From Acidobacteriota bacterium (GTDB taxonomy: Bacteria; Acidobacteriota; JAAYUB01; JAMOQF01): 34,459 bases of DNA. The stretch is taken from NCBI GenBank assembly GCA_027064125.1, contig JAMOQF010000168.1:1-34459 (forward strand), read 5' to 3'. The notes under the pieces were generated by a model, which did no database searches, was not told the origin of the DNA, and saw only the letters and a program-made list of their open reading frames with translations. This document shows, piece after piece, positions 9,399 to 19,820 of this stretch; positions within the stretch are counted from its first letter, which is position 1, and every line of letters begins with the position of its first letter. Made by a program: the position numbers and the translations under genes.

Positions 9399-10610
9399 AT
9401 GGAGACTAAAAGTGCCACCTGCGGAAGAAAGGGTGAAGGAGTCAGATCCGATTGTTTTGTAAAGATAGAAAAAATTAGTGGAAACTCCATAGAACTCGAT
9501 ATTTCAAGTAAGGTTGAAAGACTTTATGGAGATAAGATAAGGGAAGATGTACTTCAAATTTTAAATTTTTATAACTTAGAGGGAATAAAACTTACCCTTC
9601 AGGATTTTGGAGCATTGCCATTTGTTCTCTTTGCAAGAATTGAATGTGCAATTAAAAGACTTTTTCCCGAAATAAAAAGGGACTTTCTACCCCCTTTAAA
9701 CAAAGGGGTAAAGACAAAATGTATAAGGGAGAGATTCAGAAGATCGAGATTATATCTCCCCGGAAATGAGCCCAAATTTATGATAAATGCTGGAATCCAT
9801 AAACCAGACGGCATAATACTTGACCTTGAAGACAGTGTGTCCCCAGATGAAAAGGATGCAGCAAGAATCCTGGTTAGAAATGCCTTAAGGAGTATAAACT
9901 TCTATGAAAGTGAAAAAATGGTGAGGATAAATCAACTTCCAATGGGGCTTGGAGATCTTGAAGAAATTGTTCCCCAGCCTGTGGAATTAATACTCATTCC
10001 AAAGTGTGAAACAGAAGAAGATGTAATCAATGTGGATAAGAAGATATCTGAACTTGAAGAAAAAAGTGGCAGGAAAGAAAAAATACTTCTAATGCCAATT
10101 ATTGAAAGTGCAAAGGGTATAATGAATGCCTATAAAATTGCGGGGGCTTCAAAAAGAAATGTTGCCCTTACGATCGGACTTGAAGACTATACCGCAGACA
10201 TTGGTGCAGAAAGGACAGAAGAGGGAAGGGAAAGTTTCTACGCAAGAAGTGTAATAGTAAACGCTGCAAAGAGTTTTCACCTGCAGGCAATTGATACGGT
10301 ATATTCCGATGTGAGCAATATGGAAGGATTGAAAAAGGCAACCCTTGAGGCAAAGTCTCTGGGATTTGAAGGAAAGGGTTGTATCCATCCACGGCAGATA
10401 AAGGTAATACATGAAGCCTTTAAACCCACAGAAAAAGAAGTTGAAAAAGCCATGAAAATTGCAAAAGCCATTGAAGAGGCAAAGAAGAGGGGAAGTGGAG
10501 TAATATCTCTTGGAAGTAAAATGGTTGATCCCCCTGTGGTCAAAAGGGCTGAGAGAATTTTAAAACTTGCAAAAGAAATGGGGTTAATTCAGGAGGGAAA
10601 AAATGATTAA
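9399..10610 (+). CDS. citE: Fused citrate lyase acyl carrier protein (CitD-like) - citrate lyase beta subunit (CitE)
   Basis: N-terminal about 95 aa resemble CitD (SDCFVKIEKISGNSIELDISSKVERLYGDKIREDVLQILNFYNLEGIKLTLQDFGALPFVLFARIECAI). The rest is CitE: RSRLYLPGNEPKFMINAGIHKPDGIILDLEDSVSPDEKDAAR, LILIPKCE, GLEDYTADIGAERT, GCIHPRQI. Confidence 0.88.
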   Translation: METKSATCGRKGEGVRSDCFVKIEKISGNSIELDISSKVERLYGDKIREDVLQILNFYNLEGIKLTLQDFGALPFVLFARIECAIKRLFPEIKRDFLPPLNKGVKTKCIRERFRRSRLYLPGNEPKFMINAGIHKPDGIILDLEDSVSPDEKDAARILVRNALRSINFYESEKMVRINQLPMGLGDLEEIVPQPVELILIPKCETEEDVINVDKKISELEEKSGRKEKILLMPIIESAKGIMNAYKIAGASKRNVALTIGLEDYTADIGAERTEEGRESFYARSVIVNAAKSFHLQAIDTVYSDVSNMEGLKKATLEAKSLGFEGKGCIHPRQIKVIHEAFKPTEKEVEKAMKIAKAIEEAKKRGSGVISLGSKMVDPPVVKRAERILKLAKEMGLIQEGKND

Positions 10611-12153
10611 AAATGTTCTTGGAAGAGAACTGCCTGATGAAATAAATGGTAGAAAGACAATCCCCTTCATGGGGGTTGGAAAATATAGGCCTGAGGGGAA
10701 GAAGGCAGCCCCTCCAATTCCAACCTGTGCTGACTATCCACCGGATGGCAACAAGGTGGTTTCATCTTTAAGAGAAGCCTTTGAAAAATGTGGACTCAGA
10801 GATGGAATGACAATTTCAGCCCACCACCACTTTAGAAATGGGGATAAGGTTATAAATAAAATTTTTGATGTGGCACATGAAATGGGCGTAAAGGATCTCA
10901 CCTTTATTCCAAGTGCCCTTTTCCCATGTCACGAACCCCTGATAGATCACCTTAAAAATGGAACAATCCACCACATAGAAGGTAGTCTAAATGGTCCCCT
11001 TGGTAGATTTTGTTCAGAGGGTAAAATGAGGGGAATGGGGGTTTTGAGATCCCATGGAGGGAGATATCAGGCAATTCAGGATGGAGAAGTACACATAGAC
11101 ATAGCAGTAATTGCAGCTCCCTGCGCCGATCCCTTTGGAAATGCAAATGGCGTTTTTGGAAAATCTGCATGTGGACTACTTGGATTTGCCCTTGCGGACA
11201 GTCAATATGCAGATAGGGTAATTGTGGTTACAGATAACCTTGTGGATTTTCCCTGTGCTCCATTTCAGATTCATGGGAATTTGGTGGATTATGTTGTTGT
11301 AATGGATGAAATAGGTGATCCAACAAAAATTGTCTCAGGTACAACACAGATAACCAAAAGTCCAGATAGACTCTACATTGCAGAACTCATTGCAAGATTC
11401 ATAAGAGATTCAGGAATTATGAGGGATGGATTTTCATTTCAGGCTGGAGCAGGTGGAACAAGCCTTGCATTTGCAGTTTTTTTAAAGGAAATGATGAAAG
11501 AGGCAGGGGTAAAGGCGAGGTTTATAAGGGGTGGAAGCAATAAATATCTGGTTGAGATGCTTGAAGAGGGGCTCACCGACTACATACTTGATGGACAGAC
11601 CTTCGACCTTGCAGGTGTTGAATCAATAAGAAATCATCCCAATAAACACATTACAACTTCACCCTTTACCAGTTATAACTACCACTCAAAGGGAAATTTT
11701 GCCTCAATGGTTGATGCTGTAGTACTTGGGGCAACAGAAGTGGATATAAACTTCAATGCAAATGTGGTTACCCATTCCGATGGTGTACTTCTGCATGGAA
11801 TTGGAGGCTGGCAGAACTGCCTCTTTTCAAAATGCACAATCCTTGCGGTACCATCTTTCAGGGATAGGATACCGGTTATCGTGGATGAAGTGACAACACT
11901 CTGTGGACCTGGAGAACTGATAGATGTAATAGTTACAGAGAGAGGAATTGCCATAAATCCTCGCAGGGAAGACCTTATTGAATCTGTGAAAAATAGCGAT
12001 CTGCCAATCAGGAAAATTGAGGAGATAAAGGAAGAAGTGGAAGATATATGTGGTGGAAAGCCACAAAAACCCAATTGGGGAGATAAATTTGTGGCAGCCA
12101 TCAAGTGGGTGGATGGGACTGTAATTGACGCTGTTAAAAATGTAATTTTTTAA
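10603..12153 (+). CDS. citF: Citrate lyase alpha subunit (citrate CoA-transferase)
   Basis: 516 aa: NVLGRELPDEINGRK, LREAFEKCGLRDGMTISAHHHFRNGD, SGTTQITKSPDRLYIAELIARFI, FQAGAGGTSLAFAVFLK, IIVDEVTTLCGPGELIDVIVTERGIAINPRR, diagnostic for CitF. Overlaps citDE by 8 nt. Confidence 0.95.
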   Translation: MIKNVLGRELPDEINGRKTIPFMGVGKYRPEGKKAAPPIPTCADYPPDGNKVVSSLREAFEKCGLRDGMTISAHHHFRNGDKVINKIFDVAHEMGVKDLTFIPSALFPCHEPLIDHLKNGTIHHIEGSLNGPLGRFCSEGKMRGMGVLRSHGGRYQAIQDGEVHIDIAVIAAPCADPFGNANGVFGKSACGLLGFALADSQYADRVIVVTDNLVDFPCAPFQIHGNLVDYVVVMDEIGDPTKIVSGTTQITKSPDRLYIAELIARFIRDSGIMRDGFSFQAGAGGTSLAFAVFLKEMMKEAGVKARFIRGGSNKYLVEMLEEGLTDYILDGQTFDLAGVESIRNHPNKHITTSPFTSYNYHSKGNFASMVDAVVLGATEVDINFNANVVTHSDGVLLHGIGGWQNCLFSKCTILAVPSFRDRIPVIVDEVTTLCGPGELIDVIVTERGIAINPRREDLIESVKNSDLPIRKIEEIKEEVEDICGGKPQKPNWGDKFVAAIKWVDGTVIDAVKNVIF

Positions 12154-12184: not shown

Positions 12185-14338
12185 ATGAAAAAAACTACTA
12201 TTTTTTATTTTCTAATTTCCTTTATTCTTTTTTCCCCCATATTTTCAGGGAAAACCCTGTATTTGAAGGATTTTTATATCCTTGACTATCCCATCTGGCA
12301 CTTTGTCGCAAAGGCACTAAAAAGGGGAATTATTCCCATGTGGAATCCCCTCTTAAACTTCGGTCAGCCCATTTTGACAAATGGGAATTACCTCATCTTT
12401 TATCCCCTCTCCTATATAAGAATATTTTTTTTCCCCCTATTTTCACTCAACCTGTTTGTAATGCTACATCACTTTTTAGGAATGCTCTTCTTCCATAAAT
12501 TACTGAAGGAAATGGACATTGATGAAAAAATATCCCTTCTGGGAGGGGTAATATATGGATTTACGGGGGTGGTAATATCCCTTTTTTATCTCATAAATCT
12601 TCTGCCCTATATATTTTTAACCCCATTTTTTTTACTTTCTCTCATTAAACTTCTAAAAAATGAAGGAAATAATTTTAGAAATATTTTTATACTTTCAATT
12701 TCCACAACACTTGTAATTTCCACATTTGAACCCCTATTTTTCATGGGAACAGCATTATCTGGAATTTTCATTCTCATGGGACAGAAACTACCTCCCGATA
12801 CTCTGAAAAAAATTTTAGTTTCCATACTTCTTTCAAGCCTCATATCCCTTCCTCTTTTAATTGAAGGATATAAAGATTATACGGGAAATATGAGATCTCT
12901 TTTAAACAAAGAAGTTAAAAATCTCTCAAGGGGATATGACTTTCCTCCTGAAGCATCCGGTGGATTTTTTTTTGATAACTTTTTTAAAGAGGACTTTAAA
13001 ATATCAAATAGCAAAAATATCTACAAAAAATATGGGGCAAGAAGTCCTCTTTTTATGACATTTTTTCTATCCTCATCACTATTACTCCCCTTTTTCTATT
13101 TCTTTTTTTATATAAAAAAAAGGGACCTCTTCCTACCATTGGGCGTAATTATATTTCTAATCCTCTCAATGGGGGGGTATTGCCCCATTGTAAAGAAATC
13201 ATTTCATCTAATCCCAATAATTTCAAATGGCAGATATTTTCAAAAGTTTACATTTTTCTTTTCCCTATTTTTTCTAATCACATCCATAAAAGGTTTTAAA
13301 GAAATAATTTACAGATACTCAAGGAAAAACCTGGTATTTTCTCTATTTCTCTCTGTAATATTACTTTCATCACTTCTTCTTATATCACCTGGAAAATTCT
13401 TTATTTCACCCATTTTTTTATTAATTTTCTTTTTCCTACTTTTTATTTCAAAAAGGGATTTTCAGAAAAGATACCTCATAATGTCTGTGGTCCTTTTTGA
13501 ACTACTATTTGGAAACTTGAGATTTATAAAATTTGATGTGATAAATCAAAAAAGATACTCCATCAAAAATCTGGATAAAAAATATAGAATGACATTTCTA
13601 ATGGATACTCAAATTATTACCAAGAAAAATGAAACAATAAAGGAATACATTGAAAAACTTACATCCATTAAATATCCCTTCCTGGGCTTTTTAGATAACA
13701 CATCATATGGATTTAATGAACCTGTGGATTTAATGGAAGAAACACACACCGCAAAACTCTCCCAATTTTTTAGAAGGCTTACCATGAGCCAGAAAATAGA
13801 AATCGCCAGAAAGTTAAATGTAAAATACATCACAACAACCAAAAATCTGCCATTAAAAAAGATATGGGAGAAAAATGATTTCAAACTATATGAAATAGAT
13901 GCATATCCAAAATTCTATTTTTCAAGGGGAATAAGAATTGGAGACATTGCCACCCTTTTAAATCCAGAGTTAAAATATATAACCGTCACAAAAATTCCCA
14001 TTGGAAATGGTTTTAACTTTAACGGTGGGAAAATATTAAGTATTAAAGATGAAATAAACAAAAAAGAACTTGAGGTAATCTCAAATGGGAAAAATTTACT
14101 CATCATAAATGAAACCTATTCCCCCAATTGGAGTTGTTATATTGATGGGAAAAGAGTCAAAATTTTCAGGGTAAATGACAACTTTATGGGAGTTTTAATC
14201 CCGAAGGGAAAACATGAATTAAGATTAAACTATTTACCTTCCACCCTTCCACCTGCAATTTTTATATCCATTCTAACCATCATCCTCTCCCTATACCTGG
14301 GGAGAAAGGCCACAATCAGCACATCCAACTCCACATAA
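12185..14338 (+). CDS. YfhO-like polytopic membrane protein (GT-C/PMT-like)
   Basis: 717 aa: many TM helices, N-terminal LDYPIWHFVAKALKRGIIPMWNPLLNFGQPILTNGNYLIFYPLSYI as in YfhO family, and C-terminal lumenal-type domain ending YSPNWSCYIDGKRVKIFRVNDNFMGVLIPKGKHELRLNYLP. Confidence 0.82.
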   Translation: MKKTTIFYFLISFILFSPIFSGKTLYLKDFYILDYPIWHFVAKALKRGIIPMWNPLLNFGQPILTNGNYLIFYPLSYIRIFFFPLFSLNLFVMLHHFLGMLFFHKLLKEMDIDEKISLLGGVIYGFTGVVISLFYLINLLPYIFLTPFFLLSLIKLLKNEGNNFRNIFILSISTTLVISTFEPLFFMGTALSGIFILMGQKLPPDTLKKILVSILLSSLISLPLLIEGYKDYTGNMRSLLNKEVKNLSRGYDFPPEASGGFFFDNFFKEDFKISNSKNIYKKYGARSPLFMTFFLSSSLLLPFFYFFFYIKKRDLFLPLGVIIFLILSMGGYCPIVKKSFHLIPIISNGRYFQKFTFFFSLFFLITSIKGFKEIIYRYSRKNLVFSLFLSVILLSSLLLISPGKFFISPIFLLIFFFLLFISKRDFQKRYLIMSVVLFELLFGNLRFIKFDVINQKRYSIKNLDKKYRMTFLMDTQIITKKNETIKEYIEKLTSIKYPFLGFLDNTSYGFNEPVDLMEETHTAKLSQFFRRLTMSQKIEIARKLNVKYITTTKNLPLKKIWEKNDFKLYEIDAYPKFYFSRGIRIGDIATLLNPELKYITVTKIPIGNGFNFNGGKILSIKDEINKKELEVISNGKNLLIINETYSPNWSCYIDGKRVKIFRVNDNFMGVLIPKGKHELRLNYLPSTLPPAIFISILTIILSLYLGRKATISTSNST

Positions 14339-15957: not shown

Positions 15958-18216
15958 TTATATCACTCCTGAAGCAATGGCTGTAATTGTGGTTATATTT
16001 ACAATGTCCTCAACCCTTGAAGAATAATGGAGAACATTCACAGGCTTTTTCATCCCCAACAAAATGGGACCTATAGCCTCAGCATTACTCAAGTACTGTA
16101 CAAGTTTGTATCCAATATTTGCACTAAAAAGTTCCGGGAAAACAAGGATTGTAGCATCTCCAACAATTTTTGAATGGGGGAAGTTTTCCTTTACAAACTC
16201 TGGATCAAGTGCCGCATCAACCTGCATCTCTCCATCCACAATGAGATCGGGTCTACGTTCTTTTACAAGATTTACTGCCCTTTGAATCCTGCTCACATCC
16301 TCATTTCTGACACTCCCAAAACTGGAATAGGACAAAAAGGCAATCTTTGGCTCAATATCAAAAAATTTTGCCGCCTCAGAGGCCATAATTGCAATATCTG
16401 CAAGTTCTTCTGAGTCAGGCATTAAATTTACTGTGGTATCAGCCATTATCAGGATTCTATTTTCAAGGATCATCATATAAAGCCCTGCAACCCTTTCGAT
16501 ATTTTCTCTCACCCCAATTATTTCAAGGGCTGGTCTAATGGTTTCCGGATAGGAAGATGTTATTCCTCCAACAAGTCCATCCCCCATTCCAACCTCAAGC
16601 ATCATCATTCCAAAATAAAAGGGATTTAAGAGTTTTAACCTGGCCTGCCTTGGGGTCATCCCCTTATATTTTCTCAACTGATACAATTTATCCACAAATT
16701 CATCCATTCTGTCAAATTTGTGGGGGTTGTAGACCTCATAATCTTTAAATTCAAGTCCAAGGGATTTAATTTTTTCTTCAATTACCTCCCTATCTCCTAT
16801 CAGTACAGGCTTTGCTATATCCTCATCCAGAATCCTCTGACAGGCCCTTAAAATTTTATCTTCTTCACCTTCAGGAAAAATTATCTTCTTTTCATGATGT
16901 TTTACTTTATTTATGGCTATTCTCATTACTTTTTTAGAAAGTCCGAGCATTGCCTCAAGTTTCTCTTTATATTCCTCTATATCGTCAAAGGGTTTTTGTG
17001 CCACACCGCTTTCTATCGCAGCCTGCGCCACAGCAGGAGCCTCCCATAAAAGCACCCTGGGATCAAAGGGCTTTGGAATTATATAATCCCTTCCAAAGCG
17101 GAATTTTTCTCCCCCATATGCCTGAATAACAGAATCGGGCACATCTTCCTTTGCAAGATCTGCAAGGGCGTGGGATGCCGCAACCTTCATCTTTGAATTA
17201 ATCTTTGTGGCTCTTACATCAAGGGCTCCTCTAAAGATAAATGGAAATCCAAGAACATTGTTGACCTGATTGGGATAATCACTTCTACCTGTTGCCATTA
17301 TGACATCAGGCCTTGCTGCCTTTGCATCCTCGTAGGTAATTTCAGGATCTGGATTTGCCATGGCAAAAATTATGGGATTATCATTCATCTTCCTTACCAT
17401 TTCTTTGGTGACAAGCCCCTTTACAGAAACACCAACAAAAACATCCGCCCCCTCCATTGCCTCTTCAAGGGTTCTCAACTTTGTATCCTGGGCAAAAAAT
17501 TCTTTGTAGGGATTCATCCTCTCCTTTCTGCCTTTATATATAACTCCTTTACTATCAACAAGATATACATTTTCCCTTCTTATACCAAGTTCTATAAACA
17601 TCTTTCCACAGGCAATACCTGCAGCTCCTGCACCACATATTACCATCTTCATATCCTTTAAATCCTTCTCGACAATTTCAGCAGCATTTAAAAGGGCAGC
17701 TCCGGCAATAATCGCAGTACCATGCTGATCATCGTGAAAAACTGGAATATTCATGAGTTCTATTAATTTTTCTTCAATGTAAAAACACTCAGGAGCCTTT
17801 ATGTCCTCAAGGTTAATTCCACCAAATGTGGGTTCAAGTAGTTTTACCGCATTTATGAGTTCATCGGGATCCTCAGTTTTCAATTCAATATCAAAGACAT
17901 CTATATTTGCGAATCTCTTAAATAAAACTCCTTTACCCTCCATCACAGGTTTACCAGCAAGGGGACCAATATTTCCAAGTCCCAGAACCGCAGTTCCATT
18001 TGAAATAACAGCAACCAAATTTCCTTTGTTTGTATATTTAAAAACATCTTCTGGATTATCCTTAATATGCAAACAGGGAATTGCAACTCCAGGGGTATAA
18101 GCAAGAGATAGATCCCTCTGGGTAAGGCATGGTTTCGTGGCAATAACAGCCAGTTTTCCGGGTCTTCCCTCAGAGTGATAATTTAAAGCCTCTTCCTCTC
18201 TAATTTTTGCACACAT
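15958..18216 (-). CDS. maeB: NADP-type malic enzyme with C-terminal phosphate acetyltransferase-like domain
   Basis: 752 aa: [94 protein letters not shown]-terminal PTA_PTB-like [47 protein letters not shown]. Confidence 0.95.
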
Positions 18217-18227
18217 AATATATCCTC

Positions 18228-19820
18228 CTAAAATTTTATTTCTTCTCTATACTCTCCAAAAACCTCCCTTAAAGCATCAGATATTTCCCCAAGGGTGGCA
18301 TAATTTTTAACCGCTTCAATTATTGGAAACATTAAATTTTCATCCCCTTTTGCAACATCCTTAACTTTTTCAAGGGATTTTCTAACCGCATCTCCATCTC
18401 TTTCTTTTTTTAACCTTTTAACTCTTTCCACCTGTTTTCTTTCCATCTCCTCATCTATTTTCAATATATCGTAATTTTCCTCTTCCTCAATTTGAAATTT
18501 ATTTACTCCAACCACCACCTTCTCATTTTTTTCAATCTCCATCTGATATTTATACGCAGAATCCTGAATCTCTCTCTGAACATATCCCTCTTCAATTGCA
18601 CTTAACATTCCCCCCATTTTATCAATTTTTTCAATATATTCCTGAGCCCTTTTTTCAATCTCATCTGTTAACTTTTCTATGTAGTAGGAACCAGCAAGAG
18701 GATCCACAGTATCTGTAACTCCACTTTCATAACCTATAACCTGTTGAGTCCTTAAGGCAAGTCTTGCAGAACTCTCTGTGGGAAGGGAAAGTGCCTCATC
18801 CATTGAATTTGTGTGAAGAGATTGAGTTCCACCAAGTACCGCAGAAAGGGCCTGTATAGTTACCCTTACAACATTCACCATGGGCTGCTGGGCAGTTAAT
18901 GTGGAACCTGCTGTCTGGGTATGAAATCTCAACCGCCATGAAGATGGATTCTTTGCATTAAATCTTTCCTTCATTATCTTAGCCCAAAGTCTCCTCGCAG
19001 CCCTGAACTTTGCAATCTCCTCTAAAAAATTGTTGTGGGCATTAAAGAAAAATGAAAGTCTCGGAGCAAACTTATCCACATCAAGCCCCCTCTTTATCGC
19101 AGCCTCAACATATGCAATACCATCTGCAAGGGTAAAGGCAACCTCCTGAACTGCTGTGGAACCTGCCTCCCTTATGTGATATCCACTTATGGATATGGTA
19201 TTCCACTTTGGAACATATTTTGAACAGTAGTCGAAAATGTCAGTTATTATCCTCAAAGATGGTCGTGGGGGATATATATAAGTCCCCCTTGCAATATACT
19301 CCTTTAAAATGTCATTCTGAATTGTGCCAGACAGTTTTTCAGGTGATACACCCTGTTTTTCCGCAACTACTATGTACATGGCAAGTAAAATTGCCGCCGT
19401 GGCATTTATGGTCATTGAGGTGGAAACCCTATCAAGGGGAATCTCCTTAAAAAGTACCTCCATATCCTCAAGGGAATCTATTGCCACCCCAACTTTTCCC
19501 ACCTCTCCACGGGAAAGTGGATGATCTGAATCGTAGCCAATCTGTGTTGGAAGATCAAAGGCAACACTGAGCCCGGTCTGTCCCTGTTCAAGTAGATATC
19601 TATATCTTTTGTTAGATTCTTCAGCAGTTGCATACCCAGCATATTGACGCATTGTCCATAGTCTTGAGCGATACATTTCCGGATATACTCCCCGTGTGAA
19701 GGGATAAGATCCAGGCATTCCCAATTTTTCATCATAATCAAAGGGTTCAATATCTTCAGGTTTGTAAACAGTTTTTATCTCAATTCCCGATGAAGTAAAA
19801 AATTTCTTTTTTTCCTCCAT
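18228..19820 (-). CDS. Methylmalonyl-CoA mutase large (catalytic) subunit
   Basis: 530 aa: [135 protein letters not shown]. No B12-binding domain in this ORF. Confidence 0.95.

Follow-up and report, generated by a model that had tools for sequence, protein, structure and literature searches.

A widespread CitD–CitE fusion form of citrate lyase, probably dependent on ordinary coenzyme A in free form

Introduction

Citrate lyase is the textbook example of an enzyme that has a CoA-derived prosthetic group of its own, together with genes dedicated to its maturation. The locus described here, from an Acidobacteriota bacterium, raises the question of how such an enzyme could work when the residue that bears the prosthetic group is replaced. 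It lies in a stretch of 34,459 nt (referred to below as the window), in which one gene appears to combine the carrier subunit CitD (gamma) with the lyase subunit CitE (beta). An earlier note, made from the sequence alone, offered two alternatives, namely that the attachment site has shifted by one residue or that the fusion works without the canonical covalent cofactor.

A carrier domain and a lyase domain in a single gene

The open reading frame begins with ATG, is preceded immediately on its 5' side by GAGGTG, encodes 403 aa and overlaps by 8 bases with citF. The features of the locus, with the evidence for each, are as follows.

9399..10610, plus strand: CitD–CitE fusion protein, 403 aa (Pfam, NCBIfam, AlphaFold2)
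9399..9671, plus strand: CitD/MdcC-like domain, residues 1–91, core 5–88 (PF06857, domain model, Foldseek to MdcC)
9423..9452, plus strand: changed acceptor loop, residues 9–18 (G-R-K-G-E-G-V-R16-S17-D18), with Arg in the prosthetic-group column (alignments)
9738..10607, plus strand: CitE (beta) domain, residues ~114–403 (Pfam, fold matches, alignment to malyl-CoA lyase)
10603..12153, plus strand: citF, citrate lyase alpha (transferase) (PF04223, E 3e-146; TIGR01584, 533 bits)

That this gene is a CitD–CitE fusion, as the earlier note had claimed, is borne out by the presence of both PF06857 and PF03328 in the one 403-aa frame: in Pfam, residues 17–87 match PF06857 (ACP; the CitD/MdcC acyl-carrier family) with E 2.4e-15 and 57 bits (cut-off 25.1), and residues 115–331 match PF03328 (HpcH_HpaI; the CitE family) with E 5e-55. 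The NCBIfam models place the fusion under the equivalog cut-offs of both citE (TIGR01588; E 8e-96, score 320, cut-off 443) and citD (TIGR01608; E 2e-13, score 50.7, cut-off 63.5), and the CitF of the window lies above the curated equivalog cut-off of 501 for TIGR01584. The CitF, CitE and CitD components of the prosthetic-group citrate lyase (EC 4.1.3.6) are all found in the window system, which has neither the acceptor serine nor CitG/CitX nor CitC.

Structure prediction with AlphaFold2, using 47 aligned sequences, gave a model of the whole fusion with a mean pLDDT of 93.7 and a pTM of 0.91. In a fold search, structures of malyl-CoA lyase, CLYBL and CitE were found to match its CitE part. Since the whole model gave CitE-like matches only, among those listed, the carrier domain was modelled separately (pLDDT 92.6). 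Comparison of this domain with MdcC of malonate decarboxylase (5vit_C) using Foldseek yielded TM-scores of 0.62/0.62 (prob 1.00, E 0.01), the best two-way TM-score among the carrier-domain matches listed, and only the 46th in rank by E-value. The N-terminal region is thus predicted to fold like MdcC, the sole solved structure of this carrier type, in keeping with the earlier assignment of this region to CitD.

Arginine in the column of the acceptor serine

In canonical carriers, the acceptor Ser is found two residues before a conserved Asp (GTLESGD in E. coli CitD; VVGSGD in MdcC), and Ser is at the same position in four canonical CitD sequences from the window's phylum (AGTMQSSD, AGSFESSD). 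When the acceptor column was assigned by gapless alignment anchored on this Asp, the window fusion was found to read Arg16-Ser17-Asp18, with Arg16 in the acceptor-Ser column and Ser17 alone remaining, exactly as the earlier note had aligned it. The note had called the serine 'displaced': the acceptor Ser is indeed missing, and it is better described as replaced by arginine. Compared with canonical CitD, the loop ahead of Asp18 has three extra residues, and residues further upstream therefore do not align one to one. Arg occupies the acceptor column in 84 of the 86 fusion genomes parsed, the two exceptions having Lys (G526) and Ser (G634), whereas Ser stands there in all of the canonical CitD/MdcC sequences compared. 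The single Ser at the canonical column, in the Ser-Ser-Asp of G634, counts against a cofactor-free reading; G634 is also without CitG. In the loop ahead of Asp18 there are about three Arg/Lys residues on average in the fusions versus none in canonical CitD, a figure that is approximate, as about two fifths of the rows were parsed from 1–5 residues further upstream. The rare loop motifs are Ser-Ser-Asp at locus L102 (G634) and Lys-Ser-Asp at locus L103 (G526).

The residue that follows the acceptor column is Ser in 83 of the 86 fusions and Ala in three (G052, G096 and G325), in each of which CitF adjoins the fusion (71–72% identity). Both G052 and G096 encode an intact fusion and an intact CitF despite Ala at this position, and they fall in different subclades of the CitE tree, a distribution which suggests two separate losses of Ser17, one in each lineage. 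The third genome adds little: it is a congener of G096, and in its draft the fusion frame breaks off after the carrier domain (open frame of 139 aa). The retention of Ser17 in 83/86 fusions points to some constraint on this residue and counts against the cofactor-free reading. One alternative is that Ser17 bears ordinary 4'-phosphopantetheine, donated by the AcpS/Sfp-type transferases of the cell, which are near-universal; however, the predicted fold is MdcC-like and unlike that of a fatty-acid ACP, an Asp-Ser-Leu-type motif is absent, and Ala variants occur at the Ser17 position, all of which makes this explanation highly improbable.

Absence of the maturation genes

None of citC, citX and citG is present in the window, which agrees with the earlier reading of this stretch, and a search of the window's own genome (2.58 Mb, 222 contigs, 94% complete) for CitG, CitX and CitC was also empty. 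The same pattern holds more widely: CitG was found in 0/92 fusion genomes, and CitX and a full-length CitC match each in 0/57. Weak CitC matches (20–35 bits) in fusion genomes were rejected, as they cover only about positions 9–108 of the 182-position model; true CitC proteins score 193–224 bits. In the stand-alone CitD genomes of the window's phylum (G111, G207, G306 and G410), CitC, CitX and CitG are encoded in the same cluster in four of four cases, and one of these genomes (G207) shares its taxonomic family (f5) with several fusion genomes. The difference between 4/4 and 0/57 gives a Fisher's exact p of about 2e-6, uncorrected for relatedness and based on four control genomes, three of them close relatives, with most genomes being drafts. 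Genome incompleteness as the cause of the missing accessory genes was rejected on the basis of the pattern across 57–92 genomes, together with the positive controls from the same phylum.

These absences bear directly on whether the prosthetic group could still be attached, on Ser17, by unrelated or highly diverged enzymes. The conservation of Ser17 in 83/86 members would accord with such a role, and unrelated enzymes of synthesis and attachment would be invisible to homology searches, but Ala stands at this position in two lineages with CitF alongside, and neither CitG nor CitX occurs in any fusion genome searched. Attachment at Ser17 is consequently considered very unlikely. The first of the two earlier alternatives, a shift of the attachment site by one residue, is disfavoured by the Ala variants and the lack of CitX (0/57) and CitG (0/92), whilst the evidence strongly favours the second, an enzyme that functions with no covalent cofactor.

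Conservation, distribution and origin of the fusion

A search for related loci recovered 16, from records named WOR-3, Caldithrix, KSB1, Krumholzibacteriia, Gemmatimonadetes, Bacteroidetes, Myxococcales and others; 15 of the 16 have a readable N-terminus, and each of these is a fusion whose motif is of the same kind. In the window's phylum, PF06857 was detected in 46/396 genomes (41 fusions, four stand-alone canonical CitD proteins and one MdcC), and in the phylum of G052 it was detected in 36/395 genomes, all of them fusions. The R-S-D motif, recorded in the earlier note for a single protein, is the signature of a large multi-phylum family. With identical architecture in dozens of genomes, misassembly or chance fusion was rejected. 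In a search of a plasmid collection, CitD and CitE were canonical and encoded by separate genes in all of the annotated best matches, and no description of a CitD–CitE fusion or of a cofactor-free form was found in the open-access literature, the part of the literature that was searched (subscription papers lay outside it). Pfam detects both domains, and the fusion may therefore sit in databases uncommented; it is a widespread form of citrate lyase, apparently undescribed. At one locus in the phylum of G052 (L125, genome G598), the fusion appears to be frameshifted in the draft, with a TRSDC motif in another frame; the broken frames near the carrier domain at this locus and at L081 (G325) represent either a real frameshift or a draft error.

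The partner subunit and the catalytic residues are strongly conserved. CitF was found in 59/62 genomes searched, the exceptions being G074 (where a 5' piece of citF runs off the contig), G084 (where the fusion lies at the edge of a contig) and G216 (an MdcC genome with no fusion). Its mean identity is 72% among fusion operons and 42% against canonical CitF. The fusions are ~45–60% identical across phyla, and the CitE part of the window fusion is 41% identical to E. coli CitE. Four predicted catalytic or metal-binding residues (R176, E236, D263 and D377), mapped by alignment to the Arg, Glu, Asp and lid Asp of malyl-CoA lyase (PMC3832036), are invariant in 47 fusions. The loss of the acceptor Ser and of the accessory genes, along with the frames broken in two drafts (G325 and G598), could be taken to mean that the fusion is an inactive, degenerating remnant, but invariance of the predicted catalytic residues at this level of identity across phyla, the high identity of CitF and the retention of citF in nearly all genomes leave such decay with very little probability.

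In a tree of the CitE part (IQ-TREE), the fusions form one clade (SH-aLRT 99), which is sister to the canonical CitE group (92), and the joint group (91) is set apart from five CitE-like paralogues, with the outer part of the tree uncertain owing to the long branches that lead to these paralogues. A placement of the fusion CitE among the CitE-like lyases that use free CoA is not supported by this tree. The simplest history would involve a single fusion, the acceptor having been lost at that time or soon after.

A proposed cycle on free acetyl-CoA

Taken with the apparently functional CitE and CitF, the missing covalent arm makes free acetyl-CoA the natural carrier, a choice which would also explain the loss of CitG, CitX and CitC together. 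We consider it likely that the fusion system is an ATP-independent citrate lyase without covalent cofactor, in which CitF and CitE cycle on free acetyl-CoA and the carrier domain serves as a scaffold and/or a non-covalent dock for CoA; we infer that the carrier is free CoA, that the substrate is citrate and that the loop has this role. In this scheme, CitF would move CoA from free acetyl-CoA onto citrate (acetyl-CoA + citrate -> citryl-CoA + acetate), the CitE domain would split citryl-CoA into oxaloacetate and acetyl-CoA, and the acetyl-CoA would re-enter the cycle, giving citrate -> oxaloacetate + acetate as the net reaction. Synthesis and attachment of the cofactor (CitG/CitX) and acetyl priming (CitC) would be dispensable. 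The former carrier domain, fused to CitE, would act as a scaffold that joins CitE with CitF, and/or its Arg/Lys-rich loop, including Arg16, would hold the CoA phosphates non-covalently, this docking role being put forward as a hypothesis. There is precedent for the use of free CoA thioesters. Dimroth and Eggerer are said to have reported in 1975 that isolated citrate lyase subunits act on CoA thioesters. Characterised CitE-like enzymes act on free CoA thioesters (PMC3832036), and in malonate decarboxylase MdcD–MdcE decarboxylates free malonyl-CoA (PMC5534430). In that enzyme MdcC forms a bridge between transferase and decarboxylase (PMC5534430); the fusion carrier domain may likewise bridge CitE and CitF.

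Comparison with known systems helps to define what is retained and what has changed. The canonical ATP-independent citrate lyase of Klebsiella and E. coli (CitD–CitE–CitF with CitC, CitX and CitG) has the alpha and beta chains and the carrier family in common with the fusion system, and CitE and CitF are adjacent in both; the fusion system differs in that the carrier is joined to CitE, the acceptor Ser is changed to Arg, the loop is three residues longer and positively charged, and citC, citX and citG are lacking. MdcC of the biotin-independent malonate decarboxylase (5vit_C) has the fold predicted for the N-terminal domain of the fusion, but unlike it is a chain of its own, with phosphoribosyl-dephospho-CoA attached to Ser25. 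Malyl-CoA lyase, CLYBL and M. tuberculosis CitE have the TIM-barrel fold and the corresponding catalytic residues in common with the fusion CitE. The free-CoA CitE-like lyases act on free CoA thioesters (PMC3832036), an activity attributed to the fusion CitE by inference, and unlike the fusion they have neither a CitD domain nor a CitF partner and are paralogues outside the group of canonical and fusion CitE.

On balance, it seems somewhat more likely than not that this is a second, widespread type of citrate lyase, independent of citC/citX/citG and dependent on free CoA, in which the carrier domain has been kept, fused and rebuilt as a non-covalent CoA binding or docking domain. If so, a covalent swinging arm can be surrendered for free CoA whilst the carrier fold is retained, and the annotation rule that a genome without citG/citX has no working citrate lyase would be wrong for many uncultured bacteria. 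Genomes in which no citrate-cleaving step has been recognised would also gain one, as a candidate component of a reductive or reversed TCA route. Of the two directions, cleavage is the more probable for such an enzyme, as the equilibrium of citrate lyase favours it.

Gene neighbourhood and substrate

Proteins encoded near the fusion were scanned at loci L012, L017, L024 and L025, and those at other loci were grouped by BLAST. In L012, L013, L015 and L017, the fusion is preceded by an aconitase-family gene of ~600 aa together with separate large and small subunits of the aconitase/isopropylmalate-dehydratase type; the end of what seems to be the same arrangement is visible in L078, and an aconitase-family gene lies upstream of the fusion in L023, L024 and L025. 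A gene grouped with an isocitrate/homoisocitrate-dehydrogenase-family protein is found in L017, L022, L023, L025 and L098. Citrate synthase (PF00285) is encoded in the window's genome and in 49/62 genomes. Together, the aconitase- and isocitrate-dehydrogenase-family neighbours and the occurrence of citrate synthase make citrate/isocitrate metabolism the likely field of the fusion system. No PF00285 citrate synthase was found in the WOR-3 genomes G040, G041 and G043 (L012, L013 and L015, respectively), despite their citrate lyase/aconitase cluster, and these may have a Re-citrate synthase or none.

The aconitase/homoaconitase- and isocitrate/homoisocitrate-dehydrogenase-family neighbours of several relatives leave the substrate unfixed, and would be in line with a cofactor-free lyase for another tricarboxylic or 2-hydroxy acid (e.g. 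citramalate, homocitrate or methylcitrate). The same genes are, however, equally compatible with citrate/isocitrate chemistry, and CitF scores above the curated citF equivalog cut-off; a different substrate is regarded as unlikely, though it is the most probable of the alternatives considered here, and citrate is retained as the more likely substrate.

Several further features of these neighbourhoods were observed. Upstream of the fusion in L012, L013, L015 and L017 (L012:2032-5780, for example), and in line with it, a single-chain aconitase-family protein of ~604 aa (large plus C-terminal domain) is encoded beside a two-subunit enzyme of the aconitase/IPM-dehydratase type, making two aconitase-type enzymes per cluster. 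In family f44, about 1.7 kb separates the fusion from citF in L097 (G308) and L082, the gap in L097 containing an ORF of ~467 aa with no Pfam or NCBIfam match, and in L084 of the same family citF is on another contig. In the window, a malic enzyme fused to phosphotransacetylase was identified with Pfam and, beside it, a look-alike of the methylmalonyl-CoA mutase large subunit was recognised by eye (15958-18216 and 18228-19820, both minus strand), which looks like C3/C4 acid metabolism near the citrate lyase. Finally, citF is followed in the window by a gene for a hydrophobic protein of ~720 aa (12185-14338, plus strand), a homologue of which also follows citF in a relative of the same genus (L021:2259-4451).
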